Of a DNA stretch of 64,000 nucleotides, positions 2,346 through 63,469 are shown piece after piece. The stretch is taken from NCBI GenBank assembly GCA_032622095.1, contig CP136067.1:98694707-98758706 (forward strand), in the 5' to 3' direction. Made by a program: the position numbers and the translations under genes. How positions within the stretch are numbered: position 1 is the stretch's first letter; every line of letters begins with the position of its first letter. Source of the stretch: Siphonodentalium dalli. Lineage: Eukaryota > Mollusca > Scaphopoda > Gadilida > Siphonodentaliidae. The notes below the pieces were generated by a model. The model searched no databases. It saw only the letters and a program-made list of their open reading frames with translations, and was not told where the DNA came from.

Positions 2346-3590
2346 TGCAAAGAGTAAATTCCAAGATGGCCACTGGCAGCCATGTTTTTTTGCCGAATGA
2401 CCCCCAAAAAAACTTGTTCCCATTTATATGTCATTGTTAACATCCATTACAAATTTCATGGTGATCCTACAAAAGATACGACCTGTACCCTATGTGAAAG
2501 GTTTTAGTCATGTAAAGAGCAAAATACAAGATGGCACCTGGCGGTTATGTTTTTTGGGCGAATGACCTCAAAATGACCCATTTCCCATCTACATGTCATT
2601 GTTAACATCCATGACAAATCTCATTATGATCGGACCAAAGATACGACTTGTAGCCTGTGCCAAAGGATTTGGTCATGCAAAGAGTAAAACCCAAGATGGC
2701 TGCTGGCGGAGATGTTTTTTTGCCGAACGATCCCAAAATTACTCGTTCCCATCTACATGTCAATATTAACATCCATGACAAATTTCATGAAGATCAGACG
2801 AACAGTACGACCTGTAGCCCATGATAATAGATTGAATTTTGAAATCCAATATGGCTGCTGGTGGCCATTTTTTTTGCCGAATGACTCCAAAATGCCTCGA
2901 TCCCATCTACATGTCAATAGCCATTACAAATTTCATAATGATCCGACCAAATGCAGGACATGTAGCCCGTGCCAAAGGATTTAGTCATGCAAAGAGTAAA
3001 ATCCAAGATGGCTGCTGGCGGAGATGTTTTTTGGCCGAACGACCCCAAAATTACTCGTTCCCATCTACATGTCAATATTAACATCCATGACAAATCAGAC
3101 GAACAGTACAACCTGTAGCCCATGCTAATAGATTGAATTTTGAAATCCAAGATGGCTGCTGGCGGCCATGTTTTTTGGCCGAACGACCCCAAAATGACTC
3201 GTTCCCATCTACATGTCAATGTCAACAGCCATGACAAAACTCATAATGACCTGACCAAAGCTATGACCTGTAGCCCGCGCCAAAGGATTTAGTCATGCAA
3301 AGAGGAAAATCCAAGATGGCTGCTGGCGGCCATGTTTTTTGGCCGAACGACCCAAAAATGACTCGTTCCCATCTACGGTACATGTCAATATTAACATCCA
3401 TGACAAATTTCATGATGATCAGATGACCTGTAGCCCGTGCTAATGGATTGAATTTTGAAATCCAAGATGGCCACTCGCGGCCATGTTTTGTTGCCAAATG
3501 ACCCCAAAATGACTCGTTTCCCATCTCCATGTCAATGTCAATATCCATGACCAATTTCATAATAATCAGAACAAAAGTACCTCTGTGCAT
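2346..3590 (+). repeat. Tandem array, ~144-168-bp units with AAGATGGC cores
   Basis: Eight diverged units whose 'CCAAGATGGC' cores start near 2361, 2526, 2691, 2846 (mutated to ATATGGC), 3003, 3148, 3311 and 3463. Each unit then has 'GGCGGCCATGTTTTTTGGC', 'CTCGTTCCCATCTACATGTC' and an 'ACAAATTTCATGATGATC' block. From 2691 on, two unit types alternate: one enters through 'CATGCAAAGAGTAAAATCC', the other through 'GATTGAATTTTGAAATCC', giving a dimeric higher-order period of about 310 bp. Reading frames here on both strands are by-products. Two further units of the family lie at about 40840-41160. Confidence 0.85.
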
Positions 3591-5348: not shown

Positions 5349-5707
5349 ATCGTTGTTGACAAAGTGACGTAAGTTGCTATGCCGAGAGAGAAAGTTGAAA
5401 GCCAGCGACGTTGGCGGTTGGTCGGTATTTATACCCAGCCAACCGGAAACAAGGCCGTTAAAAATAGCATAGCAACGCACGTCACGCGGCACGTAGGATT
5501 TCCCTTAATATTTACAATTATGAAAGTTACAGATCAGCAAAGCGATCTGTGAAATAAAACGGATCAAACTGATGAAATAGTACGAACACGACGATAGATT
5601 TACGATATAATTCGCGATGAACATTAGGAAAGTAAAATTACGTAAAATAGGGCGAACATAGAACTTAATTAGAAAGATTTTACAATTAGTTAACCCTCTC
5701 ACGCTAC
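5349..5707 (-). repeat. LTR-like ~357-bp repeat, copy 1
   Basis: Nearly identical to 8889-9245 in the same orientation. On the minus strand the unit begins TGTAGCGTGAGAGGG, carries a canonical TATA element (GGGTATAAATACC, near 5430) within a GGTTGG...CCAACC hairpin, and ends ...TTGTCAACA, so it has TG...CA termini. A purine-rich run (GCAGGGGGG) sits just upstream of its minus-strand start at about 5710-5720, as a polypurine tract would. These are features of a long terminal repeat. I see no convincing primer-binding site at the other copy, so solo LTRs remain possible. The 120-codon frame on the minus strand is probably chance. Confidence 0.6.
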
Positions 5708-7495
5708 AAAACCCCCCTGCAGAAAATGTGTTCGCCCCGAACACGAAATAAATATTAAAATATTAAATTTTAAATGTTTCTAACCCGTATGCATAAAAAA
5801 AATGACAAAGACACCTACTTCCATTCACACACAACTCAAACTCACGCCTTTCATTCCCAAAAATAAAGTTGCAACATATATTTCGATATCTTCTGTCTTC
5901 AATAGGGTCCCTTTCCTGGGGTTCTGGAGGACATTACATATCTCATCCATATTTCTCGTTATGGTATGTATATCGATCCTAATTTTCGCGGAAGCTCATG
6001 CCTGGGGATCTGGTGAGCATCCATTCTTCATCTGTGGGATCTGTGTTCACTTGAGACTCATGCCTATGGATCTGTTGAGTCTCGATTCTTCAACTTTGAG
6101 CACAAGTATGAGTGATCACATTTTATGAGTGAGTGATCAAATCTCCGTGTGTATTAACATATACACTATCACCAGTAAACAGTCCATATCATTATCGAGC
6201 GTTATCTTTATGCCGATATGTATAGCTTGCGTGTGTGTATTGGTGACATCTGAACACACAGCAATGAGACAGTCATTCAAACTAAAGTTACCAGGGTCTT
6301 TCTGTTTGCCAAGAGCAGCATACATCACAACAGAACGTCAACAGTGGCCAGCGCGTCAGACTGACCTGCTTGAAGTACACTGTCGGTGGTATCACATCGT
6401 TGCTGCACAGTAGGCCTCCTGTCGCAGTAACTTCATGGTAACGTCTAGCATCATCTACCATACCGTGGAGTTTGGCGGATCAACTGCACCAAGCCATCTC
6501 ATCGTCTGGTGTCCATCTGTACATCTCATCTTACCATCGCCTGTGAAGATAGAATGTAGGGAACATTCAAATGGACTGTCGCTTCGGACATCGAATATTC
6601 CATGCATATCATCAAGTATATCATATTTTAGCTTGCATGGTCCAGGCATGGCAATAACCTCATGGAACTTTATAAGTCGTTTCCCTCCCAATTATGGGGC
6701 TATACTGATAAGTGATCTGGGATGGGACAGTACTATTTGACGAACATCAATTCCCCAAGTCAACAAACTATGGAATGGATTGACATCTGACCATATACAC
6801 GACATGTAACCTCTGGACTTAGACTGTGACCAATCAAATGTGGAAATCTGCATCACCCTTTGATCAACGTATCTGAACTACGACTGGAAGCTCGTCATCT
6901 TCTAAATAGTTTAAAACATCTTGTCTTTACATGGAAATAGCACACATCACGAAATACTATGAGACATCATGCACCATATATGGAAAATCATCACACGTAG
7001 TAAAAGTAAATTTCATCGACATCTAGATTGCTCGCACCCAAGTCAAAATAACGCCGAATAAAATCTCACACCGTTCAAGTGGACCACTGACGCATCAAAT
7101 GTGGTTCGGCAAAGGATTTCTATCATCCGGAAACTTGGGGAGCTTTTTGTCTCTCCGATGTATTCCTATTTTCAACTGCTATCGCACCAGACTGCTCCAC
7201 GGTAACCACTGCGTGGAATAATGTGCTCCTGGAAACTACTGTCTGTAGAGGTCTGTTTGTAGAGAGGGCCAGCTAGAGGGTATCTGACCTTGCAATGAGC
7301 ACCTGGTAATTTGCGGGATGTCCTTTCGACATCAAAGGGTGTTCTCCAAACCCAAACTAGACAGGTATACGCGCTTACTCCCTGCTAGAATAATGACTTC
7401 TCAAAAAGTCTGAAGGGCAAAGACCATATTCATATACCGTCGGCATATATGAACTATGGACCCAGGAATTTTGTGCTCATTATATAAATTCGTCC
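5708..7495. other. Non-coding interior between LTR-like repeats, part 1
   Basis: If the two LTR-like copies are a pair, this is the 3' half of the interior on the minus strand. No gag, protease, reverse transcriptase or integrase motif is visible on either strand. The minus-strand frame at 6455-6691 and the plus-strand frame at 5802-6128 look faintly protein-like, but I recognise no domain. Confidence 0.4.
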
Positions 7496-7832: not shown

Positions 7833-8888
7833 GGCACCCGCATCACCCTGCTAGCTAGGCAAACCTCTCTGTATTTTCATCATCGTCGATGACCAAATTC
7901 ATCATCATCTCTACATCTGTCTTCAATAAAATCTTCAGTAGCTGACATCTAGCGAAGTTTATGACATCTACATATCGCGGCTTTAAATTGACGTCATGAT
8001 ATTATCAATCTGTATACATGTAGGGTGGTATGTATCAATTCAAGTCAGCCGACAATTAACAAAACTGGTTGGCTTCATTTTCATCGGCAGTATTTTTTTA
8101 CATTGGAACCATGGATCGTAACGCCGCACTGTATATGTACATCGTGGTCAGCTCTGTTGGTGATAACCTGGTATACATGGCTCCAATGGGGTCAACTTCA
8201 TCTCTCGGCATCGGGTAGGGCTTCGAATCTCGTCAGTATTACTAATACGTCTTCTTCAATACGACTTCATCGTAGCACGAAGCATCTCCAGTATGGTAAA
8301 TACTCCTACGTGTATACATCTTCACCGTAATTATCTGAGTAACTCAACAACTAATCAACAACAAGAAACATCAAATATTGACTAAGGAAATTTCTTGAAA
8401 TTTTCAAACACTATCTACACAAACCTCATAACTGCAGAGAATATGACAAAACTCTAATATAAAATACAGCATCGAAAAATCTCTTCGGGAATAAAATACC
8501 AACTAACAAATATTCTATATTGGAACAAAAATACAGTTTAAAAATTTCTCTTCGGAAGCGAAAATACGTGATCCCACCGCCGGACACCATTATGTGGCGT
8601 GCTGGGGGAGGGGTACCCATATAAATGTCCTAAATAGGCCGAGCGGAAACCTGACATAATATATACCCCAATGCCACACGTGAAACTAACTGTTTCCCAA
8701 TTACAAGTGGTAGCGTTATAGTTATACTGAGGGAGTGCCACACAATGGACCACTGGTCAACTCATTACATAATTACCATATCATTAATATGCATAAGCCA
8801 GTTGGTAAGTATACCTGCATCTGTATCGGATTGGTAGCGGTAGCTGATACTGTGACCTTTGACCTCATTCATGACGTGACCTATATTC
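7833..8888. other. Non-coding interior between LTR-like repeats, part 2
   Basis: No recognised domain. The end next to the second LTR-like copy (about 8850-8888) does not match an obvious tRNA 3' end on the minus strand, so a primer-binding site is not supported. Confidence 0.4.
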
Positions 8889-9245
8889 GTTGTTGACAAC
8901 GTGACGTAAGTTGCTATGCCGAGAGAGAAAGTTGAAAGCCAGCGACGTTGGCGGTTGGTCGGTATTTATACCCAGCCAACCGGAAACAAGGCCGTTAAAA
9001 ATAGCATAGCAACGCACGTCACGCGGCACGTAGAATTTCCCGTAATATTTACAATTATGAAAGTTACAGATCAACAAAGCGATCTGTGAAATAAAACGGA
9101 TCAAACTGATGAAATAGTACGAACACGACGACAGATTTACGATATAATTCGCGATGAACATTAGGAAAGTAAAATTACGTAAAATAGGGCGAACATAGAA
9201 CTTAATTAGAAAGATTTTACAATTAGTTAACCCTCTCACGCTACA
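8889..9245 (-). repeat. LTR-like ~357-bp repeat, copy 2
   Basis: Direct copy of 5349-5707 with only scattered substitutions and the same minus-strand TATA hairpin (near 8968). It abuts the left end of the segmental duplication exactly. ATAT flanks it on both sides if the unit starts TCGTTG, which would suit a solo insertion; the pair as a unit has no shared target duplication. Confidence 0.55.
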
Positions 9246-9615
9246 ATATGATACACTAGATTGATTGATTGATTGATTGATTGATAGATACATCTCTATG
9301 TGAAACACAATTGTCGTCTTTTGTTTTTTCGAACTAATGTGTATATGATGTGCATGTTTTATGCTATGGAGTCTCAAGTATACGCAGTTGTAAATAAATA
9401 AATAATTCTTTGTTGGTGGGACGGATTAAACGCAATAAACAAAATGATAATCGCTCCGACCTGACAAGGTCTACAACTACTTATATTCGATGTGTAAGAA
9501 TCATGTTTTGTGATGCCATTTGGATATACAATTTATGAGAATACGTGTAACACTTTGAGAGCAAGAGTATTCTCTATTTCCACCAAATATCCATAGAGGG
9601 TTTTACATCACTTTA

Positions 9616-9644
9616 ACCTGGGCAACGCCGGGTAACCCTGCTAG
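9616..9644 (+). mobile_element. Helitron-like 3' terminus
   Basis: A six-base-pair hairpin (ACCTGG...CCGGGT) is followed 7 nt later by CTAG and then T. This is the layout of a Helitron 3' end (short hairpin, then CTRR, next host base T). The same signature is at 22053-22081 in the second copy, where the one change falls in the loop. I could not locate the 5' TC end or any Rep/helicase. Confidence 0.4.
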
Positions 9645-9835
9645 TTGTCATATATAACAGTAAGATATTTGTTCTACTGCTAGTCTGAAACAGTAATGTT
9701 ATCAGTTGGAAATGTTGAGGTACTAGTTGAAACGTTCCAGCACATGGCGGGAGGTGCGAACTAGTATTTCGCGAGGGGTGAAGTAGAACGTTCGTGACTG
9801 ACACTCTCCATCGGAGACCATCTAGTCACGCCCCT

Positions 9836-9965
9836 GTGAACATTTTCTGTTGCACGTTGGTAATCTGAGCAACAAGTCACGTGATAATCTTCCACTGGAG
9901 AGTTTGCATCTCGGTGAGTTATCGCCTTCCTTAAAAGATGGCCAGACATGCCTTCATCTATACCG
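9836..9965 (+). repeat. Dispersed repeat with GTTGGTAATCTGAG core
   Basis: Related stretches occur at 18911-19045, 22277-22405 and 26462-26572. They share 'CACGTTGGTA(A/G)TCTGAG', 'AGTCA(A/C)G' and 'GTGAGTGATCGCC'-like blocks in the same order. Non-coding family of unknown type. Confidence 0.55.
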
Positions 9966-10839
9966 GTGCATCGCATCCCTCCCACAGGGACGTAGCTAGA
10001 GGGCTGCCGTTTGGGGAAATGAGAGAAATTTCGTTTGCATCCTCCCATTTCAGTGGGATATGTCCATCTGCTCAATTTGCCATTTCTTGTATTACGCTAA
10101 TCCAAGCGAGTCGATGGAAAGCCGGCATCTGCATCGCATATGGCATAGTATATCTGATATTGCCACCTTTCAGTCAAATTTATTTTCTTTTTGGGGTCGG
10201 ATTTATACACGCGCGAACACTTTCCCTGCACGACTTCAGCTTGTGTCAAAACCTGGCATATGTAGCTCAAGCAGAACCTTATTTTTGTCCCTAATAAGTC
10301 ATGTTTTTTTATTTCTTCAAGTTTCTTGTTGTGCTATTCGAACGAAAAATAGCGACATGTGTCATTTTGACACTAGGACGTCTTATCTCGACAACAAATA
10401 CATGTACGAGTTTTGTTGCCAGAACATTTTCGTTGAACAGCAAGTTTGTGTGATCACTCGTAGCATATTAGGTCGGCTACGGACCAGGTTATAATTCAAA
10501 CTCAATTTAATTGGTATACATTCCAGTTATCGGAACATGATCAATACATTTACATAACAACACAAAAACTGACAGATGATTAAGACAAATATAGACATGT
10601 ATGTTGAACAATTATTGCTGAATAGGACACATATAATGACAAAGTAATATGGATCAGGAGCTGGCTAATTCCTTACGTTTTCCGAACATGCTGAATACAT
10701 CAATTATACAAATGTTCGTAATATCCATATCATTGGAACTTAAAATGAAATGAGCTTTTTCTTCATTACCAAGTGTATGAAATTTTGGGAATATGCTACT
10801 GATATTATCCATTAATATATTACATTCATTGCTAAGGCG

Positions 10840-11330
10840 GTATCAGTTTGCAATCAAGTGTAATTCATCCTCCGTTCCATTGTCACATATAGGGCAGATC
10901 CTATCTGATAAATGTAATTTCTTTGATCTCCCTTTTTCAACAAACATTATGCTACCACTAATCAGTATTTTTGTAAAAGTGGCTACAATTTCACTACCTA
11001 TATCAGCAAGTAAATAGTTTTCGATTTTAAAGGACGATTCTATTTTCCTGTAGAATCTAAGTTTGTTTCCATTTGGTTTGTTTTTATCATTATACAACTC
11101 ATTGCTCCAATACTTTGAAAATCATATTTGTAAATTCTGACCAATGGCATATGCTTAATATTCGAAGAGGATTAGCGCATCCACACATGTTGAGCCCAGA
11201 TTTCTAAATATGGTCTTCATCTGTGCACATAATTGTCATCCATTTTCATGATTTTTTGAGAAGCTTTGTATACTAAAGAATGATCAGGTGACTGTAATAT
11301 GTGGTCCCCAAAAATTACACTACTTTTAAT
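10840..11330 (-). pseudogene. LINE reverse-transcriptase C-terminal remnant
   Basis: On the minus strand the frame reads ...LRFYRKIESSFKIENYL..., ...GRSKKLHLSDRICPICDNG and ends TEDELHLIAN. That is the C-terminal region of CR1/L2-like non-LTR retrotransposon ORF2: the 'KI..F..E.YL' helix, then 'GR....l..R.C..C..g..DE.H'. Upstream, a second frame with stops still shows 'KNHENGWQLCAQMKTIFRN'. The copy is 5'-truncated with frame breaks and does not encode a working enzyme. Its 3' end is probably near 10495. A second copy lies at 23281-23770 inside the duplicated segment. Confidence 0.75.
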
Positions 11331-12000
11331 TCCTGTGATATATCCTGGGAAAAGTCCCAGTTCATCCAAACATGCCATCATACGATCTCAGAGGTTGTGT
11401 TTTCGCCTCTCTCCAAACATTAATGTTACACTTTATATACAACACATAATCGACATAATCGACGGTCCCATACCGTTTCATCCGTTTGACGGTCTCATAC
11501 CGTTATTGTGCCCATGAAAATTGTCTAAATTAAATATTAAGTCATGCCGTCAAAATTCAATAGTATATTTATCGGCGACCATATTATATACGGCAATGAT
11601 TCCATATAGTATGACTGAATCTTACTCTGCTGATATTTAATATGTATTATTAATGCGGCATTCATTATGTGTTATGTGGGTGGTTCGAATTATCATGAGT
11701 ACAGTACGTAATTCTCATTCCTGGGTTAACTTCCCGCTTTAGCAATCATTTCATTTCTTCGTCATGTTATGATTTATCGTTGATAGCAAACTATTGTATT
11801 TTGGGAAAATGTTACCTTTTCGATTGTGGGCAGTTGTTAAGACGGTTTGATTTCGGTTCGTTTGATAACCGGACAAGTTTCAATTATGCGAATACCTGCT
11901 TAGTCATTGACAATTTCCACTAAATGCGAGAGTAGAGATTCATGTCAATCATGGCATGATCCGCCGCCCGGGGTCTGACGTCATTCGACGCAGTGTTGAA

Positions 12001-12009
12001 ATTGCAGTG
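12001..12009 (+). repeat. Left 9-bp target-site duplication (ATTGCAGTG)
   Basis: ATTGCAGTG here and at 16741-16749 flanks the 4731-bp element. The unoccupied site, with one ATTGCAGTG, is at 24442-24450. Confidence 0.85.
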
Positions 12010-12301
12010 CAAGCTGTACACAGCGCCATCTACGCTCATGCTATGATTTACCGCTGGCACCACGTAAATTATGGGAGGAATCATCACATTTTTTGGTTTG
12101 AGACTTGTGTTTGTCACAATTCATTATACACTATTCTGACAAAAAATAATGTTCATCTGCAATTGGATATTTGCCGGGTGAGATCAAATTAGTCGGAATT
12201 TGTTCGATATTGTATCGCAAAATAGTCCGCTGAAAAATCCTGCGCTGACCTTTCCCCGGAAGTAAACAAAGGCACATGTTTGAAAACACGATTTATTAAT
12301 T

Positions 12302-16740: not shown

Positions 16741-18117
16741 ATTGCAGTGTTGTGACTTAATATCAAAACCCTGGAACATTCACTGACACAAGAGGATACA
16801 TATACAATTAACACAAACTTCTATGTCAACCAATAGTGACAATAATAACAACGACTCAACGAGCAGCTGTTACTGTTATAATATTGACAATTCAATTGAC
16901 AGTGTTCTGAATCTGATTGTTTCAAAGCACATGCATGTACATTTACACATGTACATGTACTGTGCGCACCAGTGTAATTCACAAGAGCTTCAATGTGAAC
17001 AACAACACCGTAAACAATGAACTGACGCGCACAGTGACGGATGATCACATATCTACAAATCTAACTTTACAATTACACGGACAAATTCATCCCGTGTTCA
17101 TCAATTTTCATTGAAACGTGTGGATATGAGACATTGTCATCATTCGCCATGTTATCGTCAAGTTATTACGACAATTTACCGGGAGTACACTATTGGTTGG
17201 ATGTTCTTATCAAACTAGCTTTGGCTGACTCACTGATATTGATACTAAGTCAGTGTCGTGATACCAGTATACAGTTTGATGCATCATGCTTTAAAATTTC
17301 ATGGAAAATGTGAGACTACAGGAGAACATTGTCGCCAAGTCATCACGCACAGTTATTAAGGAATCGGCTGTTGTCTTGAAGATTCCAATCCCATCTAGCT
17401 GTTATTGATATACATTACCAGTCAAAAGAAGTGGTATATTAAGCGCGCTATTTTCGCGCCCAATATCGCAATAATATTGCAAGTGGAAACGCTTATAAGC
17501 ATGTCGCTTGTGATATTATTGCAATATTTTGTGCTTAATATCTCAATATTTTGCGCTTAATATTGCGACATCTTGCGCTCAAAATTGTGACATATAAATC
17601 AAATTATTGCTTCTTCTATATTGTTTATTGTATAAATAGAGACATTGTTTTAGGTATGTATATATTTATAGTTATAAATGCTATATATACACTATATGTA
17701 CATTATATGCACAGTATTTATCTAATATAAATCTAACACTATCGGGTCTGTATGAAATTTAGCGCGCTTAGTATCGCAATATTTTGCGTTCAATATTGCA
17801 ATAATAAGCGCGACAGATTTTTTGTATTGTGCTATAATCACGCCTTTTTCTAAATTAAGCACGCTCAATATCGCAATAAAGGTGCGCCTATATAAGAATA
17901 CCACTTCCTCTGACTTGTACTGTATTGTCATGATGTATACGGATTCACCTGTTAAAACAATAACTGTGTTTACATGTGACTGGACAATTTCACGCCTTAC
18001 ATGTTACCAAAAAGTATGCCATTACTTTTACATGTACATTAATTTGAGTTTTAACTGTGAAGCTTTGTTCTTTTTATGGCTTAAAAGGGCATGCCGATTC
18101 ATGTTTTAGAATTGCCA
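16741..18117 (+). repeat. Segmental duplication copy 1, right part (B)
   Basis: Continues the duplication after the inserted element: starts with the right ATTGCAGTG (16741-16749) and aligns with 24442-25818. It ends with 'GCCGATTCATGTTTTAGAATTG', after which the two loci diverge. It contains an ACATGTAC-rich stretch near 16920-16960 and a MITE at 17429-17906. Confidence 0.9.
17429..17906. mobile_element. MITE-like element rich in AATATTGCGA words
   Basis: Ends are AAGTGGTAT (17429) and its inverse ATACCACTT (17898-17906), with AAGCGCGC-like subterminal blocks. The interior repeats 'CAATATTGC', 'GCGCTTA' and variants many times in both orientations. The copy at 25130-25610 has the same limits. 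No coding capacity. Confidence 0.6.
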
Positions 18118-21689: not shown

Positions 21690-23280
21690 GATATGATAAA
21701 CTAGATTGATTGATTGATTGATTGATTGATACATCTCTATGTGAATCACAATTGTCGTCTTTTATTTTTTCGAACTAATGTGTTTATGATGTTCATGTTC
21801 CATGCTATAACGTCTGAAGTATACGCAGTTGTAAATAAATACTTCTTTGTAGGTGGGACGGATTAAACGCAATAAACAAAATGATAATCGCTTCGACCTG
21901 ACAAGGTCTACCACTACTTATATTCGATGTGTAAGAATCATGTTTTGTGATGCCATTTGGATATACAATTTATGAGAATACGTGTAACACTTTGAGAGCA
22001 AGAGTATTCTCTATTTCCACCAAATATCCACAGAGGGTTTTACATCACTTTAACCTGGGCAACACCGGGTAACCCTGCTAGTTGTCATATACGTAAGTAA
22101 GATATTTGTTCTACTGCTAGTCTGAAACAGTAATGTTATCAGTTGGAAATGTTGAGGTACTAGTTGAAACGTTCCATCACATTGCGGGGAGGTGCGAACT
22201 AGTATTTCGCGAGAGGTGAAGTAGAACGTTCATGACTGACACTCCTCCCCATCGGAGACCATCTAGTCACGCCCCTGTGAACATTTTATGTTACACGTTG
22301 GTAATCTGAGCAACAAGTCACGTGATAATCTTCCACTGGAGAGTTTGCATCTCGGTGAGTTATCGCCTTCCTTAAAAGATGGCCAGACATGCCTTCATCT
22401 ATACCGGTGCATCGCATCCCTCCCACAGGGACGTAGCTAGAGGGCTGCCGTTTGGGGAAATGAGAGAAATTTCGTTTGCATCCTCCCATTTCAGTGGGAT
22501 ATGTCCATCTGCTCAAGTTGCCATTTCTTGTATTACGCTAATCCAAGCGAGTCGATGGAAAGCCGGCATCTGCATCGCATATGGCATAGTATATCTGACA
22601 TTGCCACCTTTCAGTCAAATTTATTTTCTTTTTGGGGTCGGATTTATACACGCGCGAACACTTTCCCTGCACGACTTCAGCTTGTGTCAAAACCTGGCAT
22701 ATGTAGCTCAAGCAGAACCTTATTTTTGTCCCTAATAAGTCATGTTTTTTTATTTCTTCAAGTTTCTTGTTGTGCTATTGGAACGAAAAATAGCGACATG
22801 TGTCATTTTGACACTAGGACGTCTTATCTCGACAACAAATACATGTACGAGTTTTGATGCCAGAACATTTTCGTTGAACAGCAAGTTTGTGTGATCACTC
22901 GTAGCATATTAGGTCGGCTACGGACCAGGTTATAATTCAAACTCAATTTAATTGGTATAAATTCCAGTTATCGGAACATGATCAATACATTTGCATAACA
23001 ACAAAACAACTGACAGATGATTAAGACAAATATAGACATGTATGTTGAACAATTATTGCTGAATAGGACACATATAATGACAAAGTAATATGGATCAGGA
23101 GCTGGCTAATTCCTTACGTTTTCCGAACATGCTGAATACATCAATTATACAAATGTTCGTAATATCCATATCATTGGAACTTAAAATGAAATGAGCTTTT
23201 TCTTCATTACCAAGTGTATGATATTTTGGGAATATGCTACTGGTATTATCCATTAATATATTACATTCATTGCTAAGGGG

Positions 23281-23770
23281 GTATCAGTTTGCAATCAAGT
23301 GTAATTCATCCTCCGTTCCATTGTCACATATAGGGCAGATCCTATCTGATAAATGTCATTTCTTTTATCATCCTTTTTCAACAAACATTATGCTACCACT
23401 AATCGGTATTTTTGTAAAAGTGGCTACAATTTCACTACCTATATCAGCAAGTAAATAGTTTTCGATTATAAAGGACGATTCTATTTTCCTGTAGAATCTA
23501 AGTTTGTTTCCATTTGGTTTGTTTTTATCATTATACAACTCATTGCTCCAATACTTTGAAAATCATATTTGTAAGTTCTGACCAATGACATATGCTTAAT
23601 ATTCGAAGAGGATTAGCGCATCCACACATGTTGAGCCCAGATTTCTAAATATGGTGTTCATCTGTGCACATAATTGTCATCCATTTTCATGATTTTTTGA
23701 TAAGCTTTGTATACTAAAGAATGATCAGGTGATTGTAATATGTGGTCCCCAAAAATTACACTACTTTTAA
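23281..23770 (-). pseudogene. LINE C-terminal remnant, second copy
   Basis: Duplicate of 10840-11330 carried within the segmental duplication; it shares the IRICPICDNG-like block with extra substitutions (for example near 23355-23372). It is non-functional and tells the age of the duplication, not a separate insertion. Confidence 0.7.
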
Positions 23771-25129
23771 TTCCTGTGATATATCCTGGGAAAAGTCCCA
23801 GTTCATCCAAACATGCCATCATACGATCTCAGAGGTTGTGTTTTCGCCTCTCTCCAAACATTAATGTTACACTTTATATACAACACATAATCGACATAAT
23901 CGACGGTCCCATACCGTTTCATCAGATTGACGGTCTCATACCGTTATTGTGCCCATGAAAATTGTCTAAATTAAATATTAATTCATGCCGTCAAAATTCA
24001 ATAGTATATTTATCGGCGACCATATTATATACGGCAATGATTCCATATAGTATGACTGAATCTTACTCTGCTGATATTTAATATGTATTATTAATGCGGC
24101 ATTCATTCTGTGTTATGTGGGTCGTTCGAATTATCATGAGTACAGTACGTAATTCTCATTCCTGGGTTAACTTCCCGCTTTAGCAATCATTTCATTTCTT
24201 CGTCATTTTATGATTTATCGTTGATAGCAAACTATTGTTTTTTGGGAAAATGTTACCTTTTCGATTGTGGGCAGTTGTTAAGACGGTTTGATTTCGGTTC
24301 GTTTGATAACCGGACAAGTTTCAATTATGCGAATACCTGCTTAGTCATTGACAATTTCCACTAAATTCGAGAGTAGAGATTCGTGTCAATCATGGCATGA
24401 TCCGCCGCCCGGGGTCTGACGTCATTCGACTCAGTGTTGAAATTGCAGTGCTGTGACTTAGTATCAAAACCCTGGAACATTTACTGACACAAGAGGATAC
24501 AGATACAATTAACACAAACTTCGATGTCAACCAATAGTGACAATAATAACAACGACTCAACGAGCAGCTGTTACTGTTATAATATTGACAATTCAGTTGA
24601 CCGTGTTCTGAATCTGATTGTTTCAAAGCACATGCATGTACATTTACACATGTACATGTACTGTGCGCACCAGTGTAATTCACAAGAGCTTCAATGTGAA
24701 CAACAACACCGTAAACAATGAACTGACGCGCACAGTGACGGATGATCACATATTTACAAATCCAACTTTACAATTACACGGACAAATTCATCCCGTGTTC
24801 ATCAATTTTCATTGAAACGTGTGGATATGAGACATTGTCATCATTCGCCATGTTATCGTCAAGTTATTACGACAATTTACCGGGAGTACACTATTGGTTG
24901 GATGTTCTTATCAAACTATCTTTGGCTGACTCACTGATATTGATACTAAGTCAGTGTCGTGATACCAGTATACAGTTTGATGCATCATGCTTTAAAATTT
25001 CATGGAAAATGTGCGACTACATGAGAACATTGTCGCCAAGTCATCACGCACAGTTATTAAGGAATCGGCTCTTGTCTTGAAGATTCCAATCCCATCTAGC
25101 TGTTATTGATATACATTACCAGTCAAAAG

Positions 25130-25610
25130 AAGTGGTATATTAAGCGCGCTATTTTCGCGCCCAATATCGCAATAATATTGCAAGTGGAAACGCTTATAAG
25201 CATGTCGCTTGTGATATTATTGCAATATTTTGTGCTTAATGTCGCAATATTTTGCGCTTAATATTGCGACATCTTGCGCTCAAAATTGTGACATATAAAT
25301 CAAATTATTGCTTCTTCTATATTGTTTATTGTATAAATAGAGACATTGTTTTAGGTATGTATATAATTATAGTTATAAATGCTATATATACACTATATGT
25401 ATATTATATGCACAGTATTTATCTAATATAAATATAACACTATCGGGTCTGTATGAAATTTAGCGCGCTTAGTATCGCAATATTTTGCGTTCAATATTGC
25501 AATAATAAGCGCGACAGATTTTTGGTATTGTGCTATAAAAATCACGCCTTTTTCTAAATTAAGCACGCTCAATATCGCAATAAAGGTGCGCCTATATAAG
25601 AATACCACTT
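25130..25610. mobile_element. MITE-like element, second copy
   Basis: Same limits and internal AATATTGCGA-type words as 17429-17906; it travelled with the duplication. Confidence 0.6.
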
Positions 25611-25818
25611 CCTCTGACTTGTATTGTATTGTCATGATGTATACGGATTCACCTGTTAAAACAATAACTGTGTTTACATGTGACTGGACAATTTCACGCC
25701 TTACATGTTACCAAAAAGTATGCCATTACTTTTACATGTACATTAATTTGAGTTTTAACTGTGAAGCTTTGTTCTTGTTATGGTTTAAAAGGGCGTGCCG
25801 ATTCATGTTTTAGAATTG

Positions 25819-27812: not shown

Positions 27813-28024
27813 TTCAGAGATAGAAAGGTTTTGGGAAATACGGTACTTTTAATATATCAACTGTTGTCACACGTGGGTGCCAGCAATCTATAACGATATC
27901 GAATACAGTGGAAATCCTTAAGATTATGCCATTCTATCAAAATTGTGTTTTTTTAATTAGCTATGTGATCATGATTTCTTTTTCATACATTGCATATCAG
28001 TCTACGATCATGCAAATCTTCACC

Positions 28025-28319
28025 ATGGCCTTCACCCTGTTGCATCTTCTCGGAGCGGTGGAATCAGTTGCGCAAGGATTCAAACGGATATTTGAACTGG
28101 ACGGAGTACACGGACCAGGTGCGTTTGAGACTCACTCCATGATACAGAGTCGTATTATATGCGCTGGAACTTGCGTCAGAAATGGATGCGTGAGCTTCGT
28201 CTATCATGTTGGAGAGAGGAAATGTTATCTCTACGACTGGCCGCTGACTATATCCACTATCGGCATCAGCCGCAGCACATGCCCGGGAGGCAGCGTGGCA
28301 TTTTGGACAACTCGTGATG
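28025..28319 (+). CDS. PAN/C-type-lectin gene, exon 1 (signal peptide + PAN)
   Basis: The first exon of a probable secreted protein. ATG 28025 has a strong context (CACCATGGCC) and opens a signal peptide, MAFTLLHLLGAVESVAQG; in-frame ATGs at 28010 and 27926 are possible alternatives. The rest is a PAN/Apple-type domain: FKRIFELDGVHGPGAF, then SRIICAGTCVRNGCVSFVYH and GERKCYLYDW, with the C..C...C..F.y....C.L spacing, and a last cysteine in STCPGG. PAN domains bind proteins or carbohydrates. The exon ends at a canonical donor (GATG|GTGAGT) in phase 1, which matches the phase-1 acceptor of the lectin exon at 34952. Joining them is inference; small exons in the 6.6-kb intron may be missed. Confidence 0.7.
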
Positions 28320-29904
28320 GTGAGTAGCAGACCGGGTTCACGCAGTCGGTGCGGCCAAATTGACCAATTTGTTTAAAATGGCCAAAGAAAATTTCATTTG
28401 GCCAAACTTTTTTGACAATAAAGGCTATAGTCAGTAATCACATATTTGATAATCATCAGATCTGAATAGAACCATTCGTCCATGCATGTATGGATAATAA
28501 TTTTATCGAAACAATGAATCAAGTCAAACTACTTTTTTCTGATTTGTGGTTTTCAATATAAGGCATTGTGAGCAAACCAGTGCTCATTTGTTATATTTAT
28601 ATATATTTGTTACCGCCTGCATTGTCATTGTTTTGTCCAAATTACAATTATCAGTTATTTCTGTACGTGTATTTTATATATAACGTTAGTCTCTGTCTTC
28701 TGAATAATCCAATATTTAGTTTCCCAATTTGGCCAAACAAACGTGATGATGATTGTAGATATAGGTGAACGCTTTTAGTCCCCACTAAATTGACTATTTT
28801 TCAAGTTCCAGCTTAGATTCTCCTCCGCCAGTATTTGGCATGAACACTTCTTGTTCGCGATTGAACATTCTAATTAACACGTTTAATGAATTTGTTGTTA
28901 CAGTTTTGTTGGTACTTGGTAGTCTATATTCAGATCATATATGGATAGGTTTTCCAACCAAGTAAAATAATTCTTATAATCGCTAATCTGCATCCTAACC
29001 TTAGAATTCTAGCAACTCTTGCGAGATACCAAGTATACATGGGGAGTCAGTAAGCGCAGTTGTACTAAAATGCCTGGGCGTTGCCAGGAACACAACCAAC
29101 ATGCCATGGCTTCGTCAGGATAATATAGATGTATTATACAAATATTAATGTAGTTTTTCACCTCTAGAAGTACTATACAGTATCCAATACATTATTTATT
29201 TATCCTTATATCTCTTGATCAAAAATGAGAAGCTGAAGCAACGAACACTTACACTGAGTCCATGCGTGTCTTCGTAAATCTGATGTAACTATTGTTGTCA
29301 CAGTTTATAATGTTCAAAATAGTCTCCACGAGTGCATCCGACTTGGTATCGGATGAAATCACTATGACATTAAATGTTTTAATCAATGGACTGGTAGGAA
29401 CCCTCGTGCACAACGCTCCCACTACTTAACTTATTTGGTATCTTCTTTTCGTATACCCTAATGTGTATTGTTCCGGGAAAATGGTGCCAAAAGCAAATAT
29501 TTGGGTCCTAGAGTACCTGCTGGTACAAAGTTTAGCCTTACTTAGTTACAATTTTTTTCCGATTATGATTGGGTGGGGGAAATAGTATCCCATATAAGTG
29601 ATGTCATTGTAACTGGATTTTAACAAGTGGTATGTTATTTTGTAGGAATTTAAATACTCTATCCACTGGTAGCAAATAAAATATGACGTTTAAAAATTTG
29701 ATGTTGACTTTGATGACGTCACCAGAGGTCAAAATGTCACGCAACGGTAATGAAACCACAAATATAAAAGTCTTGGAGCTGATAGGGTACCCCTGCATCC
29801 CCAACACAGGACTTATCTTCAACCCACTCACTTTCGTCCTTATTACGTTACTCAACTTTTAAGCAATGTTAACACGAAAAAAGTGCCCGTGTAGATCCGA
29901 GACC

Positions 29905-30640
29905 CTGTGGCCAATGGTGAGGTGAATATGCATACAAGGAGTGACTGTATGATCATGAATGTGGTGAATATGCCTACAAGGAGTAACTATATGATCATGA
30001 ATGTGGTGAATATGTATACAAGGAGTGACTGTATGATCATGAATGTGGTGAATATGCATACAAGGAGTGACTGTATGATCATGAATGTGGTGAATAATAC
30101 AAGGAGTGACTGTATGGTCATGGGTCAGGTGTATGAGTATACCTGGTGATCCTACGTGGCGACTCGTTGCTGTATGGTATTGTGTGTGGCGTACTGATAT
30201 ACGCAAATGTGGTTGTATGGTCATGTGTGAGTTGTGTGTGTGTATAAAGCATGTGGCTATATGACCATTGGTGAGGTGTATATGTATACCTCGATGATCA
30301 TGGGAGGGGTGTATATTTATAGCTTGAGTGGTTATATGACATGGCCACTGATGAGGTGAATGAGGTATACACGAAGTGACTGTATGACCATGAATGTGTT
30401 GAATTGATATACAGGTAGAGATTATATGGTCATGGTTCAGGTGTAGGAGTATACCTGGTGACTGGTGACACTATGGTCATGTGTGGGGTGTACGGGTATA
30501 CCTAAATGTGGTTGTATGGTCATGGGTGAGGTATTTGTGCATAAAGCGAGTGGCTATATGGTCATTTGTATTGTGTTTTTTGTATATATGGGGTGATTGT
30601 ATGGTCATATGTGGCTTGCATGGGTATACCTTGGGTTGAT
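29905..30640 (+). repeat. Minisatellite, 42-bp units degrading to ~48 bp
   Basis: Units are built on 'GTGAATATGCATACAAGGAG' plus 'TGACTGTATGATCATGAATG'. The first four are a regular 42 bp, so both strands stay open (14-residue repeats), which explains the long frames at 29859-30224 and 29907-30149. Further right the units lengthen and diverge. Confidence 0.85.
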
Positions 30641-35140: not shown

Positions 35141-36114
35141 GCGAGTCATTTATAACACAACTTTCGCCTGTTTGGAATGTAATACATATATTAATATTGT
35201 ACAAGTCGCAGGTGAGTGCATATTTGTTACACTGTAAATACATCAGACCACATACACAGAAATGATGCTCACTGTTCTACTAGTTGGCAACTCATTCATC
35301 CGCCATCATTGGCGTTGATATATCTCCATTCAGGGGCAACAGAAAGACGACCAACCATGGTCATGCTGCTATTGTACAATACTTCTCCACATTATTATTA
35401 TAGTTATGTCACTAGTTATACTACAATATAAAATCAATCAATAAAAACCGCACCAATGTATGACTTAGCAATTCAATTATTAATTTATAATGATTGGCAT
35501 ATCCTCCTTACCCACAGGGATGCCCTCGCAATAGGATCGATGCAATGAAGCTGTTAACTAATAAAATAATAAACTATTAAATAAAATATGTAGCTATTAA
35601 TACTGTCGCGGCAACTGTTTATATCCTCTGGTGGATTTGTCATTTACTGAATTCGCTAGAGCCTCGCCGAATATATAGATGTTCAAATCCCCCTCACGGG
35701 CATAAACAGTTCAGTCAGTGGGCCAATCCGGCTATTGACCCTCGAAAATGAGTTTGCTAAATATTCTGGCTGGAGCTAATTGTAATGCATCATCAGAAAG
35801 ACGATGACCTACAAATACTTTCTAACCAGGCAGGGTGCCAATTCTGAAATAGCATTGAAAGATAACATAACGGTCAAATGAAAGCCAACTTGTCAAGTCC
35901 ATAAAATGTAGTTTTCGACAGACAATGGCAATATGATGTGTATATTATGTAATGAATTAACGTTGTTGGCATCGCGGCCCTGATATTTAAATTTCTTTGT
36001 ATTTCAGAATGTTAACAATTTTAAGTTAGCACGACGGTACTATAGCTAAATACTTATTTTATACATGTATGTAAGAGCCACGTTTAATCAGGTATCAATG
36101 TTACGTTCATTTAG
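35141..36114 (+). other. Lectin intron with GC donor (inferred)
   Basis: Starts GCGAGT and ends TTCATTTAG. AT-rich, no feature inside. Confidence 0.6.
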
Positions 36115-36356
36115 GTTTACTGAAGCCGAATAATTATGGGGTATTCTATGTCGATGTGATGAAGGAATCGGGAGTGTGGAAACACAGTGACGGCACAACA
36201 GCAACCGACTTGATTTGGCTGAAAACACAACCAGACGGCGATGGTGTGTGCGGGGTACTGTGGCACTTAAATTATGTTCCTCACAAGTCCTTCAAATTTG
36301 CCGACAGCTCGTGTTCACAACAACGCAAGCACATCTGCCTTTTCGGGAATGTGTAA
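36115..36356 (+). CDS. PAN/C-type-lectin gene, exon 3 (second half of CTLD)
   Basis: After TTCATTTAG the phase-1 exon reads LLKPNNYGVFYVDVMKESGV, WKHSDGTTATDLIWLKTQPD, GDGVCGVLWHLNY, ... FADSSCSQQRKHICLFGNV and stops at 36354-36356. It has the CTLD landmarks 'W...DG', 'W...QPD', and the last three cysteines (VCG, SSC, HIC). QPD is the tripeptide of galactose-type lectins, but the usual WND before the third cysteine is replaced by FAD and the acidic residue before the second by V, so calcium-dependent sugar binding is uncertain. A GTAAGG donor-like site overlaps the stop. The +1 frame then continues with a Asp-rich tail to 36459. Confidence 0.75.
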
Positions 36357-37077: not shown

Positions 37078-37311
37078 CAATTTTACAGCAATTTTATTTC
37101 GCCAAGACACCATAGATTATATTAATTAATGTTTTAGTTTAAACGGTATTTATTCTATGAACTAATACAATATGTGATATATAGCAAAAATACAAAACAA
37201 TCATGTTGTCATGGAATGGATTTGACATCAAGCATTGTGCTTATATTGGTCGTTCCGAGAACATTACAAAATACCCCATCCCGCGAGAAAGTATAACGTG
37301 AAATCTACATA

Positions 37312-37666
37312 TTAAAGACATATCATGGACTTTTTCGGGTGCATGGAACTGATAAAGTAGTACGCAGGCCCTATGCCGACTGGGGGAATGTAGCATTATA
37401 CTAACATCGCCCAAAATCTCAAAGAAATCGACCATACAACTCCAAAGAAAACACGGTCTGAACTACGCTCAATTGTAAATATTTACATCTCGATTCGGGA
37501 CCCAACAATCGGCAATAAACTAATGCAAATGATATTTCGCCATCGATACCCATTGCATTTAATAAATATACAAGTGTGTATTATAAATTTGGGTTAAATA
37601 TTCATAAAAATAACTACTTTGAGCACTATTATTCTCCATTTATAATTGTGTTTCACATCACTTTAA
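37312..37666 (+). mobile_element. TTAA-flanked MITE family, copy 2
   Basis: Starts TTAAAGACATATCATGGACT and ends TTTCACATCACTTTAA. Same family and orientation as 820-1189, with the internal CTATGCCGACTG and CTCGATTCGGGA blocks. Confidence 0.8.
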
Positions 37667-38065
37667 CTAGTCTTCCAAAGGCAATCCGCCCCACTAGGAG
37701 GCGTTCAAGCAAAGAACGACGCGTCTAATAAACTTGCAAACAGTTAATATGGTTGTGTCTACATGTATATCTCATAACAGTTAACAAGGTTTTTAACTAT
37801 ATTTCATACCAGTGGTGCGAATGTTAGTGTTGTCGTTCCAAATCGTCGATTTTTATGATTTGGTGATAAAAAATCTGCATCAAGGAATGCATGATTACTT
37901 AATTATTGTATATTTGCAGTTCTGGTTTCACACAATATGGGATGAGAGAATTACGTCGGGCTATACATAATAATAATTGTGTATGGATTTGAGTGAATAT
38001 AATAACTGAATTAATGTTTAATTAAAGATACGAATGACCTTCGCGATGGGTATTGCTGATAAAAT
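37667..38065. other. No supported feature
   Basis: AT-rich spacer. Confidence 0.4.
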
Positions 38066-41632: not shown

Positions 41633-42009
41633 ACCTGCTGTAACTGGCTTTAAAATAGATTTTGATTTGGTTACTAGACAGGTTTAGATTGAACAACTTC
41701 TGACTTCTGCAACATGGCAGGTGATCATGTACAATGGTAGTGCACCTTTTACTACTAGTATGTTGGTAGCTAATATCCAGTTAACACCGTTTGCTCATTG
41801 TTATTTGTATACACACGAGTGGCGGTCTCGTTAAATACTGATTATAGTAAACTCTGTATATTTCATGTATGTCGTAGATGACTAATGGAATCGCTGTGGA
41901 ATGATGGAGATACGTTGTTTGGATTTAGAATATAGTACCTCACAATTAAATGACTTTTCATATACATGTAACGGGAGAAGGGTGGAATGTGGGAGCCACC
42001 CCGAAAGTC

Positions 42010-42105
42010 AGCACCTCCGATCGCCGCCCGGTCACCCATCCAAGTACTAACCGGGCTCGTCGTTGCTTAACTTCGGTGATCAGACAAGGCGTCTTAACCA
42101 CTGGA
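42010..42105 (-). ncRNA. 5S rRNA-derived segment in the 3' LTR
   Basis: On the minus strand this runs GACGCCTTGTCTGATC, CCGAAGTTAAGCAACG, GGTTAGTACTTGGATGGG, TGACCGGGCGGC, GGTGCTG. In animal 5S rRNA the equivalents are CTCGTCTGATCTCGGAAG, CTAAGCAGGGTC, GGTTAGTACTTGGATGGG, AGACCGCCTGGG, GGTGCTG, in the same order. The 18-nt 'GGTTAGTACTTGGATGGG' is identical. This covers box A and box C of the 5S internal promoter, so TFIIIA/Pol III recognition is conceivable. The 5' third of 5S is diverged, so it is not an rRNA gene. Confidence 0.85.
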
Positions 42106-42173
42106 CCAAAGAAGCATGCTCCGTTGGAGCTGTAGATTAATCGGCCTTCTATATTTACAACGCGCCCGCTACA

Positions 42174-42187
42174 TTCCTCCCTTCCTC
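42174..42187 (-). promoter_or_regulatory. Polypurine tract
   Basis: GAGGAAGGGAGGAA on the minus strand lies directly against the TG of the 3' LTR, where plus-strand DNA synthesis would be primed. Confidence 0.88.
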
Positions 42188-42266
42188 GTTTTGATGTTCA
42201 CCACCAAGTGAACCTCATCCAAGTTTCTCTCTCAGAGCGGTCGCAACATAGACACAGGCCTCTGAG

Positions 42267-42284
42267 ATCCCGGACGAGCCCCCA
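42267..42284 (-). promoter_or_regulatory. tRNA-Pro primer-binding site
   Basis: The minus strand reads TGGGGGCTCGTCCGGGAT, one base after the 5' LTR. This 18-mer is the primer-binding site known from gammaretroviruses such as MLV, complementary to the 3' end of tRNA-Pro. A match of this length at exactly this position is strong evidence for reverse transcription as the means of spread. Confidence 0.92.
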
Positions 42285-42299
42285 GTGTAACGGGAGAAG

Positions 42300-42419
42300 G
42301 GTGGAATGTGGGAGCCACCCCGAAAGTCAGCACCTCCTATCGCCGCCCGGTCACCCATCCAAGTACCAACCGACGTTGCTTAAGTTCGGTGATCAGACAA
42401 GGCGTCTTAACCACTGGAC
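42300..42419 (-). ncRNA. 5S rRNA-derived segment in the 5' LTR
   Basis: Second copy of the 5S-like segment, with box C word TACTTGGATGGGTGACC changed only to GGTACTTGG... at its edge, a 6-bp loss in the intermediate element and one change in box A (GAACTTAAGC for GAAGTTAAGC). The C box is intact. Confidence 0.8.
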
Positions 42420-43744
42420 AAAAGAAGCATGCTCCGTTGGAGCTGTAGATTAATCGGCCTTCTATATTTACAACGCGACCGCTACATTCATGTACCTTGG
42501 GCATGACCGCAGTAATTCAATTTCGTGAGTTTTTGAAATCATAGCATATCAGAAGGTCTACCAGCATCATAGCATATTAGCAGGACCACTTGACCAGGTG
42601 TGTGTCTATATATATCTGACAGTTTACACCGGTTTGTGTTGGGCATGGGAATTGGCCCTAAGTGAATTTATGTGAAAACTGTTTGATCATTGCAAATGAG
42701 CACGTATACTTTCATTTACTGGATCTCAATCAAATATAATAGAAAACATTCTATATCAAAATGAGTGTGTGAAAGACAGAAATGGAAGGAGTTCTGCAAG
42801 GAAATACAAATATATGTCAATTCACTGCCAAAAATTACAAATGTGTAATCGATTGTCACTGCTGTTACCGCATTGTCCCTCCTGTTACCGCGCCCAGCAT
42901 TATATGAATGAGACAGGAGTGACGGGTAAAATCTGTGAAAATATTGATGTTATAAGCCAGGAACCAGAGCATGGTGATGTCAAAATCATTACGACATGAA
43001 AACTAATACTTACTCATGCCATTTTTATAATGTTGTCCATGCTGTTACCAAAGTGTTCCCTACTGTTAAAATTTAAAAGGTAACAGTAGGGACGGTAACA
43101 ATAGGGACGTTTCGGTTTATAAAGGGGATTCCCACCGGTCGTCCATTGTTATGTAACAAAATGTATGTGTTGCTTCACGGGGATCACATTGGACAAAACT
43201 AAGAAGAGAAACATTTTTGTAATAATAAACTCACAGACCTGTATCTATTGGTAACAGTAATGACACACTCCCAATGTACTCACCTGTTTTATGAATGATA
43301 CTGTCAATTACGAACAAATTAATTGCACCGACCAGCGGATAACAGTTGTTTAGCCATGTGTATTGATGAGTAGTACTGGAAACCAATTTGCACTTCCTCA
43401 TTCGCCAATGCCAAGACTGTTGTATTATGTGTTTCTCTCTTGGTAACAGTAGGGACCACCAATCGTGGGACAGTTTTGTGACCTATATTATGTTACTTGA
43501 CTTGGTAAAAAATCAGACGTGTTACATATGATGCAAATTGTCTAATAAAGTGGTATTTAATGGTCTTATTTTATACAAAAATGTCTGTTTTTGGGGAGAT
43601 TTCGGAAAATGGGACAGGCATAATTGGCCATTTTTGCCATATTCCGAGCCTCTGGATTGTAGAGATATCAAGAAGCGGATGATATACGGTCTGCAGCAAG
43701 TCGACCCCATCCCATTTTATATCTCAAAATAAAAAATGTGATCA

Positions 43745-54072: not shown

Positions 54073-54326
54073 TTAGTAAACAATGTATGAACATATGTGA
54101 CGTTCCTTTTCCACTGTTGTACATTGCCAATCCCCGAGTTTGAAGTCCGTGCCCACCCGAAGAAAGAACACAGCACAGTCGTCCACAGCTCTGTTGCCTT
54201 TGGGCTGATCGGCGTGCCAAACAAGACCAGTAGGCACAGAGCCGTCAACATTTTTCCAGACGCCCTCTACCTCAGCATCTGTCAATCCAACCCAATAGCG
54301 ACCCGGAATGGCATAGCTCAGCACAC
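54073..54326 (-). CDS. C-type-lectin gene 2, last exon (second half of CTLD)
   Basis: On the minus strand, after TCATCCATTTTAG, the phase-1 exon reads GVLSYAIPGRYWVGLTDAEV, EGVWKNVDGSVPTGLVWHAD, QPKGNRAVDDCAVFFLRVGT, DFKLGDWQCTTVEKERHICS, YIVY and stops at 54075-54073. It has the C-type lectin landmarks WVGL, W...DGS, W...QP, DDC, WQC and HIC. The calcium/sugar tripeptide is QPK rather than QPD/EPN, and the WND position reads LGDWQC, so classical sugar binding is doubtful. Alternative frames over the same bases are shadows. Confidence 0.82.
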
Positions 54327-54863
54327 CTAAAATGGATGACATGGCAATTTGTTCGTACTTTAAACAAGATCTGAAATATATATTGTATATTATATATATA
54401 TACTCATTTGACTATAATGTTGCTGCCAATATTCCAAAACTGTCCTATCGGCGGGGATAATCGAACCATTGTTTCATTCATAGTCATTGGCCTAGTTAAA
54501 AGACACCACCATCATGTAGTCACTATCGTTCCATAGGAGTTTAACTTGCCAATTCTTTAATTTGTTTGCACTCCGACCCATGTTGCAGCCTCAAAACACT
54601 TCATATCTTATTGAGAACTGCTATGTACAGTTTGCATTAGTGTTCAACGCTGTCTCAAATATTATACATGTATTATCTAGTCATCACATGCAATCTAATC
54701 TAATATAATTATTTTACAATTAGCATACATACAAACTACCGAAGACAAGTACGTGATTCGCACATACCGTCGAGACAATCCATTAACATATAGTTAAACG
54801 TTCACGTACATGTATGTTCCAAAAGTATTCAATCGATAGGATTCAAATCGAAAACTACAACAT

Positions 54864-55744: not shown

Positions 55745-55774
55745 CGCAGAATGCGAGACAAATCAGAATAACTA

Positions 55775-56150
55775 TTAGAGACATATTATGTACTTGTTCG
55801 GGTGCGTGAAACTGATAAGTTAGTATTCAGGCGCTATGACAACTGGAGGAATGTAACATTATACTAACATCGTCGAAAATTTGAAGCAAATCGACGGTGC
55901 CATTCCATAGAAAACATAGTCAGAACTACGCTCAATTGTAAATATTTACTACTCGATTCGGGACGCATCTATCGGCAACGAACTAACGAAAAAGATTTCG
56001 CCAACGAGAGTCACTGCATTTAATTCATATACAAGAATGGCGATGTGTTGTCAATTTGAATAAACTATTTGTAAAACTTACTATACATTGAACAAGATAA
56101 TTCTCCATTTATATTTGATCACCATACCAGAGTGTTTCACGTCACTTTAA
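55775..56150 (+). mobile_element. TTAA-flanked MITE family, copy 3
   Basis: Left boundary degenerate (TTAG), right end GTTTCACGTCACTTTAA. Same internal blocks as 820-1189. It lies in the intron of lectin gene 2. Confidence 0.75.
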
Positions 56151-62615: not shown

Positions 62616-63037
62616 AGTGCGATAGTGTGCAAATGGAATTTCAAAGACTTGGATATTGGGCATGGTTCAACGGCTGACATAAGCTTCGTGCTTTCTGTCA
62701 AATCCCATTTTCTAATGTGTTTCTCTTTATGTTACAGGCCTATATACTATACAATTTATGTTCATTGATGATACGATACGATTTACTTGCATGACCGCCA
62801 AAAAAGGCAGTATGCTAACAAAACAATACAATTCATATATAATAAAACAAAACTTATCAAATAAATACACGTGAACATGACATGTGTAGCCATGTATACA
62901 TGTATTTTTATTGTGTGATACATGTATGTTTATTGTGTGATGGCACGCATAATATTTATTCAAAACGGTTATCAAAGAAGAGCCGGACCACGTTGGGCAA
63001 TTTACAGAAACTGAAATCTTGTTTTCGCAAAGCATAG

Positions 63038-63415
63038 TTAAAGTGGTGTGAAACACTCCGGTTGGGTGATCAAATAGAAATTGATAATTATCTTGCTCAA
63101 AGTAGTTATTTGTTACCCAATATCAATACAAATTGACGATACACATTATCATTCTTATATATTAATTAAATGCAATGGCTCTCGATGGCGAAATCATTTG
63201 TGTTAGATTATCGCATATAGTTGCGTCCCGGATCGAGATGTAAAGATTTACAATTGGGCGCAGTTCCGACGATGTTTTCTATGGAGTGGTATGGTTGATT
63301 TCTTTGAAATTTTGGCGATGTTAGTAGAATGCTATACATTCCCCATATTGGCATAGCGCCTGAGTACTAACTTATAAATTTCACGCAACCGAACAAGTCC
63401 ATAATATGTCTTTAA
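63038..63415 (-). mobile_element. TTAA-flanked MITE family, copy 4 (inverted)
   Basis: TTAAAGTGGTGTGAAACAC at the left and ATAATATGTCTTTAA at the right, that is, the family in reverse orientation with intact TTAA at both sides. Confidence 0.85.
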
Positions 63416-63469
63416 TACGTACCGCAACACTTATCATATACTTTTGCGTTTTGAACATAAAACCCCTGT

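Follow-up and report, generated by a model that had tools for sequence, protein, structure and literature searches.

A probable TRIM with a 5S rRNA promoter segment in its LTRs

A 520-bp unit at 41967-42486 on the minus strand contains two direct repeats with 5S rRNA-like cores, raising the question of whether it is a mobile element and, if so, of which kind and how it might be transcribed. The whole stretch of DNA that was analysed, here called the window, is 64,000 bases long. The unit consists of a 201-bp 5' LTR (42286..42486), a 112-bp interior (42174..42285) and a 207-bp 3' LTR (41967..42173), with the LTRs starting in TGTAGCGG and finishing in CCGTTACA, ends of the TG...CA type. An 18-nt primer-binding site (PBS; TGGGGGCTCGTCCGGGAT, 42267..42284), complementary to the 3' end of tRNA-Pro, is located 1 base past the 5' LTR, and a polypurine tract (PPT; GAGGAAGGGAGGAA, 42174..42187), a purine run of 14 nt, directly adjoins the 3' LTR. 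All of these features are on the minus strand and follow the order LTR-PBS-interior-PPT-LTR. A preliminary description of the locus, which had reported two TG...CA direct repeats of 207 and 201 bp together with a PBS, a PPT and a 112-bp interior correctly ordered on this strand, was borne out in coordinates, sizes and arrangement. With a total length below 1000 bp and an interior too short for gag or pol, the unit has the anatomy of a TRIM. The inverted ends of the 3' LTR are alike at 8/9 bases, and on the plus strand the element is traversed by a stop-to-stop frame of 105 codons. From this anatomy and the 5S homology presented below, the element is in all likelihood a TRIM whose LTRs carry a 5S promoter segment.

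The PBS has 0 mismatches to the tRNA-Pro complement and was the sole match within 3 mismatches across the 64,000 bases, the expectation for the window being 0.01 matches and 1/100 shuffles containing one. The same 18 letters begin a human tRNA-Pro-TGG reverse primer in the accessible part of PMC12217144 and are included in a PCR primer in that of PMC1802090, which describes its first primer region as a site that binds proline tRNA. Purine runs of at least 14 bases number 10 in the window over both strands, the PPT included, so the evidence for the PPT is its position against the 3' LTR and not its length.

These two sites bear directly on a different explanation for the locus, namely a tandem pair of 5S-derived SINEs, or a tandem repeat of 5S-like sequence, with unrelated spacer in between. 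Such an arrangement would also present two direct repeats with 5S-like cores, 5S genes usually being tandem, and the repeats do share 3 more bases, GAA, before the LTR start. The spacer, however, opens with the exact tRNA-Pro PBS one base past the repeat and has a purine tract at its far end, against the second repeat; TG...CA ends are present on the repeats themselves, and no poly(A) or simple tail was seen by eye after them. SINEs are not known to carry LTRs, a PBS or a PPT. Tandem SINEs are regarded as very improbable, and a TRIM is the interpretation adopted here.

To describe the 5S component, the LTRs were compared with a provisional lophotrochozoan-type 5S reference sequence. Against this provisional reference the 3' LTR had a local score of 100 and the 5' LTR one of 73, and vertebrate and fly 5S sequences, likewise provisional, gave scores of 70 each. 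The higher score with the lophotrochozoan-type sequence, all three references being provisional, is a lead on the host and no more. The score of 100 compares with a maximum of 28 in 2000 dinucleotide shuffles of the 3' LTR and a maximum of 24 among 2524 other 207-bp tiles of the window on both strands. In the 3' LTR the homologous segment (42029..42088, minus strand) is ungapped and identical to positions 34-93 of the provisional 5S reference at 56/60 bases, whilst its better preservation is apparent from comparison with the 5' LTR (42348..42401, minus strand), where 50/54 aligned bases are identical and 6 nt are deleted after box A. A 5S-like segment had been claimed for each LTR, as was found, along with an 18-nt exact match (GGTTAGTACTTGGATGGG) in each; this exact match occurs in the 3' LTR only, the 5' LTR having one mismatch within the 18-nt stretch. 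Boxes A and C of the 3' LTR (42030-42072, minus strand) match the Cassandra box pattern with exact 18-nt spacing and 3 mismatches at 25 specified positions, for which 0.01 matches were expected in the window, and no match to the pattern within 3 mismatches was obtained in the 5' LTR. Promoter sequence of a small-RNA gene is present inside both LTRs, the 5' LTR version being damaged.

Upstream of 5S position 34 the in-register identity falls to 7/33, which is chance level, and therefore only the promoter part of 5S has been kept; downstream of position 93 there is a weak tail match that appears under loose scoring only. An Rfam scan of 41700-42750 at E up to 10 produced one match, to 5S, at 42006-42105 in the 3' LTR only. 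Its 16.9 bits (E 1.8 for 1051 bases) are below the Rfam 5S gathering score of 38, and at gathering scores no match was obtained in the whole window. Identity as a 5S gene was ruled out on this basis, and judged by sequence the 5S part is a promoter fragment and not a 5S gene. A search for the 5S gene pattern returned 0 loci in viral contigs.

Upstream of the 3' LTR 5S segment is a second promoter-like motif, TGGTCCAGTGGTTA (42095..42108, minus strand), which fits TRGYNNARYGGTTA, which we take to be the tRNA A-box consensus. The fit is the only one in the window, against 0.08 expected, and the motif has one change in the 5' LTR. It suggests a refinement: the promoter would be a hybrid in which a tRNA-type A box precedes the 5S control region, and may have come from a composite tRNA/5S SINE caught by an LTR; both promoter types would place the start near LTR position 53. 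A match at 16/19 bases to the human tRNA-Ser D-arm region, as given in the accessible part of PMC12217144, points in the same direction, but 2/1262 other window tiles score equally high with this tRNA-Ser piece. The motif was, moreover, picked after being seen, and is present in 8/100 window shuffles. No SINE with the same head was found in the window, where only the two LTRs carry it, no B box was noticed by eye in the LTR, and tRNA was absent from the results of the Rfam scan of 41700-42750 (E up to 10). ARAGORN found no tRNA in the window. The hybrid promoter is tentatively proposed, and the A-box-like motif ahead of the 5S segment is best treated as a lead.

If the 5S segment of this TRIM acts as a promoter, TFIIIA, TFIIIC and Pol III would start transcription near LTR position 53, approximately 50 bases before 5S box A and approximately 30 bases after a TATA-like stretch. 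This stretch, AATATA, is found at LTR position 19 on the minus strand (42150-42155 in the 3' LTR and 42463-42468 in the 5' LTR), 34 to 29 bases before the start obtained by extrapolating the 5S register; Donax 5S genes have a TATA-like motif around -28, as described in the accessible part of PMC6204057. From there the RNA would continue through the remainder of the 5' LTR and the interior and then across the 3' LTR, and in an undamaged copy Pol III transcription could terminate in flanking DNA. There is no T4 in the 3' LTR or interior, the first T4 past the 3' LTR is 312 bases downstream, and neither AATAAA nor ATTAAA occurs in the element. The lack of these two signals from the element and of T4 from the 3' LTR fits Pol III read-through.

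The TATA-like AATATA could instead belong to an ordinary Pol II LTR promoter, with the 5S segment a functionless passenger brought in by insertion of a SINE3 or a 5S pseudogene, an alternative that contests the Pol III step and not the TRIM anatomy. That the 5' LTR version of the segment has decayed would suit a passenger, and conservation cannot be shown from one copy. Against this, the segment that has been kept is the promoter part, the box spacing in the 3' LTR is exact, and the element is without AATAAA or ATTAAA. A Pol II promoter with a passenger 5S segment is considered unlikely, although the Pol III step is less sure than the identification of the element as a TRIM with a 5S promoter segment.

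Transcription would be driven by the 5' LTR, whose promoter has lost 6 nt and which also contains the sole T4 of the element, approximately 12 bases after the presumed start. Because of the deletion and this T4 we think that this copy is probably no longer active. The deletion need not be fatal, since variable spacing between two domains of the 5S control region is reported in a title cited in the accessible part of PMC6204057. Folding of the whole unit as RNA gave a z of -2.00, with 2/100 shuffles as stable, which is too weak to use.

For retrotransposition of a Pol III-transcribed TRIM, tRNA-Pro bound at the PBS would prime minus-strand DNA. The strong-stop DNA, extending from the PBS back to position 53, could pair with the corresponding part of the 3' LTR, to which it would jump, and read-through RNA would be a usable template because of this pairing. 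The purine tract would prime the plus strand, and reverse transcriptase and integrase would come from an autonomous element, probably Gypsy. Priming by tRNA-Pro is described for some bivalve Helenus families and for the oyster element Gypsy-13_CGi (PMC10886601), which makes a Gypsy helper plausible. No autonomous partner was identified in the window by self-BLAST and in the 14 scanned ORFs.

Alignment of the two LTRs shows 6 substitutions in 201 aligned positions, about 3%, and one 6-nt gap. No exact target-site duplication (TSD) flanks the unit, the candidate pairs TGAA/TGTA, ATGAA/TGTAT and CATGAA/TGTATA agreeing at 3/4, 1/5 and 2/6 bases, respectively, though a single old copy makes this a weak test. 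LTR divergence, the damaged 5' LTR promoter and the absence of an exact TSD make the copy look old. The sequence ATGAA, which occupies the 5 bases before the 5' LTR, recurs 5 bases past the end of the 3' LTR (TGTAT, then ATGAA; 41947-41966); this may be a target duplication displaced by 5 bases, or a chance recurrence of ATGAA.

A single copy is present in the 64-kb window, self-BLAST having revealed no second copy and no solo LTR, and a BLAST comparison of the unit with all remaining window sequence gave only matches of 12 to 22 bases with E of at least 1.2. Viral contigs contained 0 loci for each of three exact patterns, taken from the LTR, from the PBS together with the interior, and from the opening part of the LTR. 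A 20-mer of the LTR was matched in 2 bacterial contigs among genome contigs; these were rejected as further copies and taken as chance.

Placement of the element depends on comparison with known TRIMs that have small-RNA promoters. The preliminary description had recognized Cassandra-like TRIM anatomy with a 5S promoter segment, which stands, and had stated that no animal counterpart was known, which is wrong: Ajax, a TRIM with partial 5S in its LTR, was described in 2024 from two nemerteans, as Ajax-1_NGe from Notospermus geniculatus and Ajax-1_LiLo from Lineus longissimus (Kojima 2024, PMC10886601). The origins of Ajax and Cassandra are judged almost certainly independent, and the class name TRIMp3 was proposed for elements with a small-RNA promoter in the LTR (PMC10886601). 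Convergent capture of 5S, which had been offered as one possibility, is thereby answered in the affirmative for this kind of element through Ajax and Cassandra (PMC10886601), but not for the element described here. Pol III transcription has been shown neither for Ajax nor for Helenus (PMC10886601).

Like Ajax, the present element is a short TRIM with PBS and PPT whose LTR contains no more of 5S than its promoter part (box A, IE and box C; PMC10886601), in this case in what is probably an animal host. It differs in that Ajax is 421 or 434 bp, has a tRNA-Leu PBS and is flanked by 5-bp TSDs (PMC10886601), as compared with 520 bp, a tRNA-Pro PBS and no exact TSD here. Cassandra, from land plants, is likewise a TRIM with 5S in the LTR. 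In the accessible part of PMC7215508 its boxes A and C are 18 nt apart, a likeness seen here in the 3' LTR only and with 3 mismatches in 25, and its PBS is given as TGGTATCAGAGC, whereas the PBS of this element corresponds to tRNA-Pro; Cassandra is also longer, at 565-860 bp (PMC10886601) against 520 bp. Helenus, from fungi, animals and one plant, is likewise a TRIM whose LTR contains a small-RNA promoter, although that promoter comprises tRNA boxes A and B (PMC10886601), whilst the small-RNA component here is chiefly 5S, any tRNA contribution being limited to an A-box-like motif. SINE3 shares a 5S-derived Pol III promoter, with the difference that SINEs depend on non-LTR retrotransposons (PMC10886601). 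Bivalve TRIMs (PMC6934838) were considered as the same element and rejected, the accessible part of that source containing no '5S r' and no clear PBS. Among the matches listed from open-licence papers there was no animal LTR element with 5S beyond PMC10886601, and no other transposon paper using TRIMp3 was found among open-licence papers.

The element is placed outside Ajax because its primer tRNA and length differ from those described; it is not assigned to Cassandra either, and it probably represents a new TRIMp3 family, set apart from Ajax by that described length and primer tRNA and not by sequence. A third independent capture of 5S by an LTR mini-element, in a non-nemertean animal lineage and with a TATA-like stretch, an A box, 5S boxes A-IE-C and a tRNA-Pro primer, is possible but doubtful; if true, it would suggest that LTR elements have repeatedly exchanged Pol II promoters for Pol III ones by taking in whole SINE heads. 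Cassandra was long a plant oddity, to which Ajax added one ribbon worm pair. One more animal family, primed by a different tRNA, would make 5S capture by LTR elements a recurrent event. It would also offer an additional animal system for testing whether Pol III makes the RNA that is copied by reverse transcriptase. For annotators there is also a caution, in that 5S-like matches in animal genomes can be LTRs.

Elsewhere in the window, 14 ORFs, out of 172 stop-to-stop frames of at least 70 aa, were scanned against Pfam, with nothing found in 9/14. A PAN_1 exon match (E 0.00017) was above the Pfam cut-off and two C-type-lectin (Lectin_C) matches (E 0.0078 and 0.00027) were below it; the ORFs with PAN_1 or lectin matches are at 27824-28324 and 36075-36353 on the plus strand and 54076-54411 on the minus strand. 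Perhaps two lectin-like genes flank the element, one on each side, and the PAN_1 and Lectin_C matches make an animal host likely. Other Pfam matches, to Vps3844_C (E 0.082) and THSD1_D3 (E 0.07), were far below cut-off, and a search with a protein in which the PAN and C-type-lectin parts were joined gave 49 candidates, 0 of them at E <= 0.001.

Several further repeats were observed. A 42-base tandem repeat at 29921-30122 (4.9 copies, 92% matches) falls within a minus-strand stop-to-stop frame of 203 codons, rich in histidine and probably not a gene, and a tandem array at 2340-3580 can be described with a unit of approximately 165 bases (74% matches) or of 312 bases (84%, 2522-3575). A dispersed repeat family of about 350-390 bp has 4 copies in the window, at 824-1171, 37306-37669, 55773-56150 (plus strand) and 63035-63421 (minus strand), which are 74.6-80.5% alike in the pairs listed. 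Near-identical duplicates pair 9246-12010 with 21691-24451 (97.4%), 16741-18114 with 24442-25818 (98.1%) and 5350-5709 with 8887-9246 (98.6%), and suggest either a segmental duplication of recent date or a long, young mobile element.
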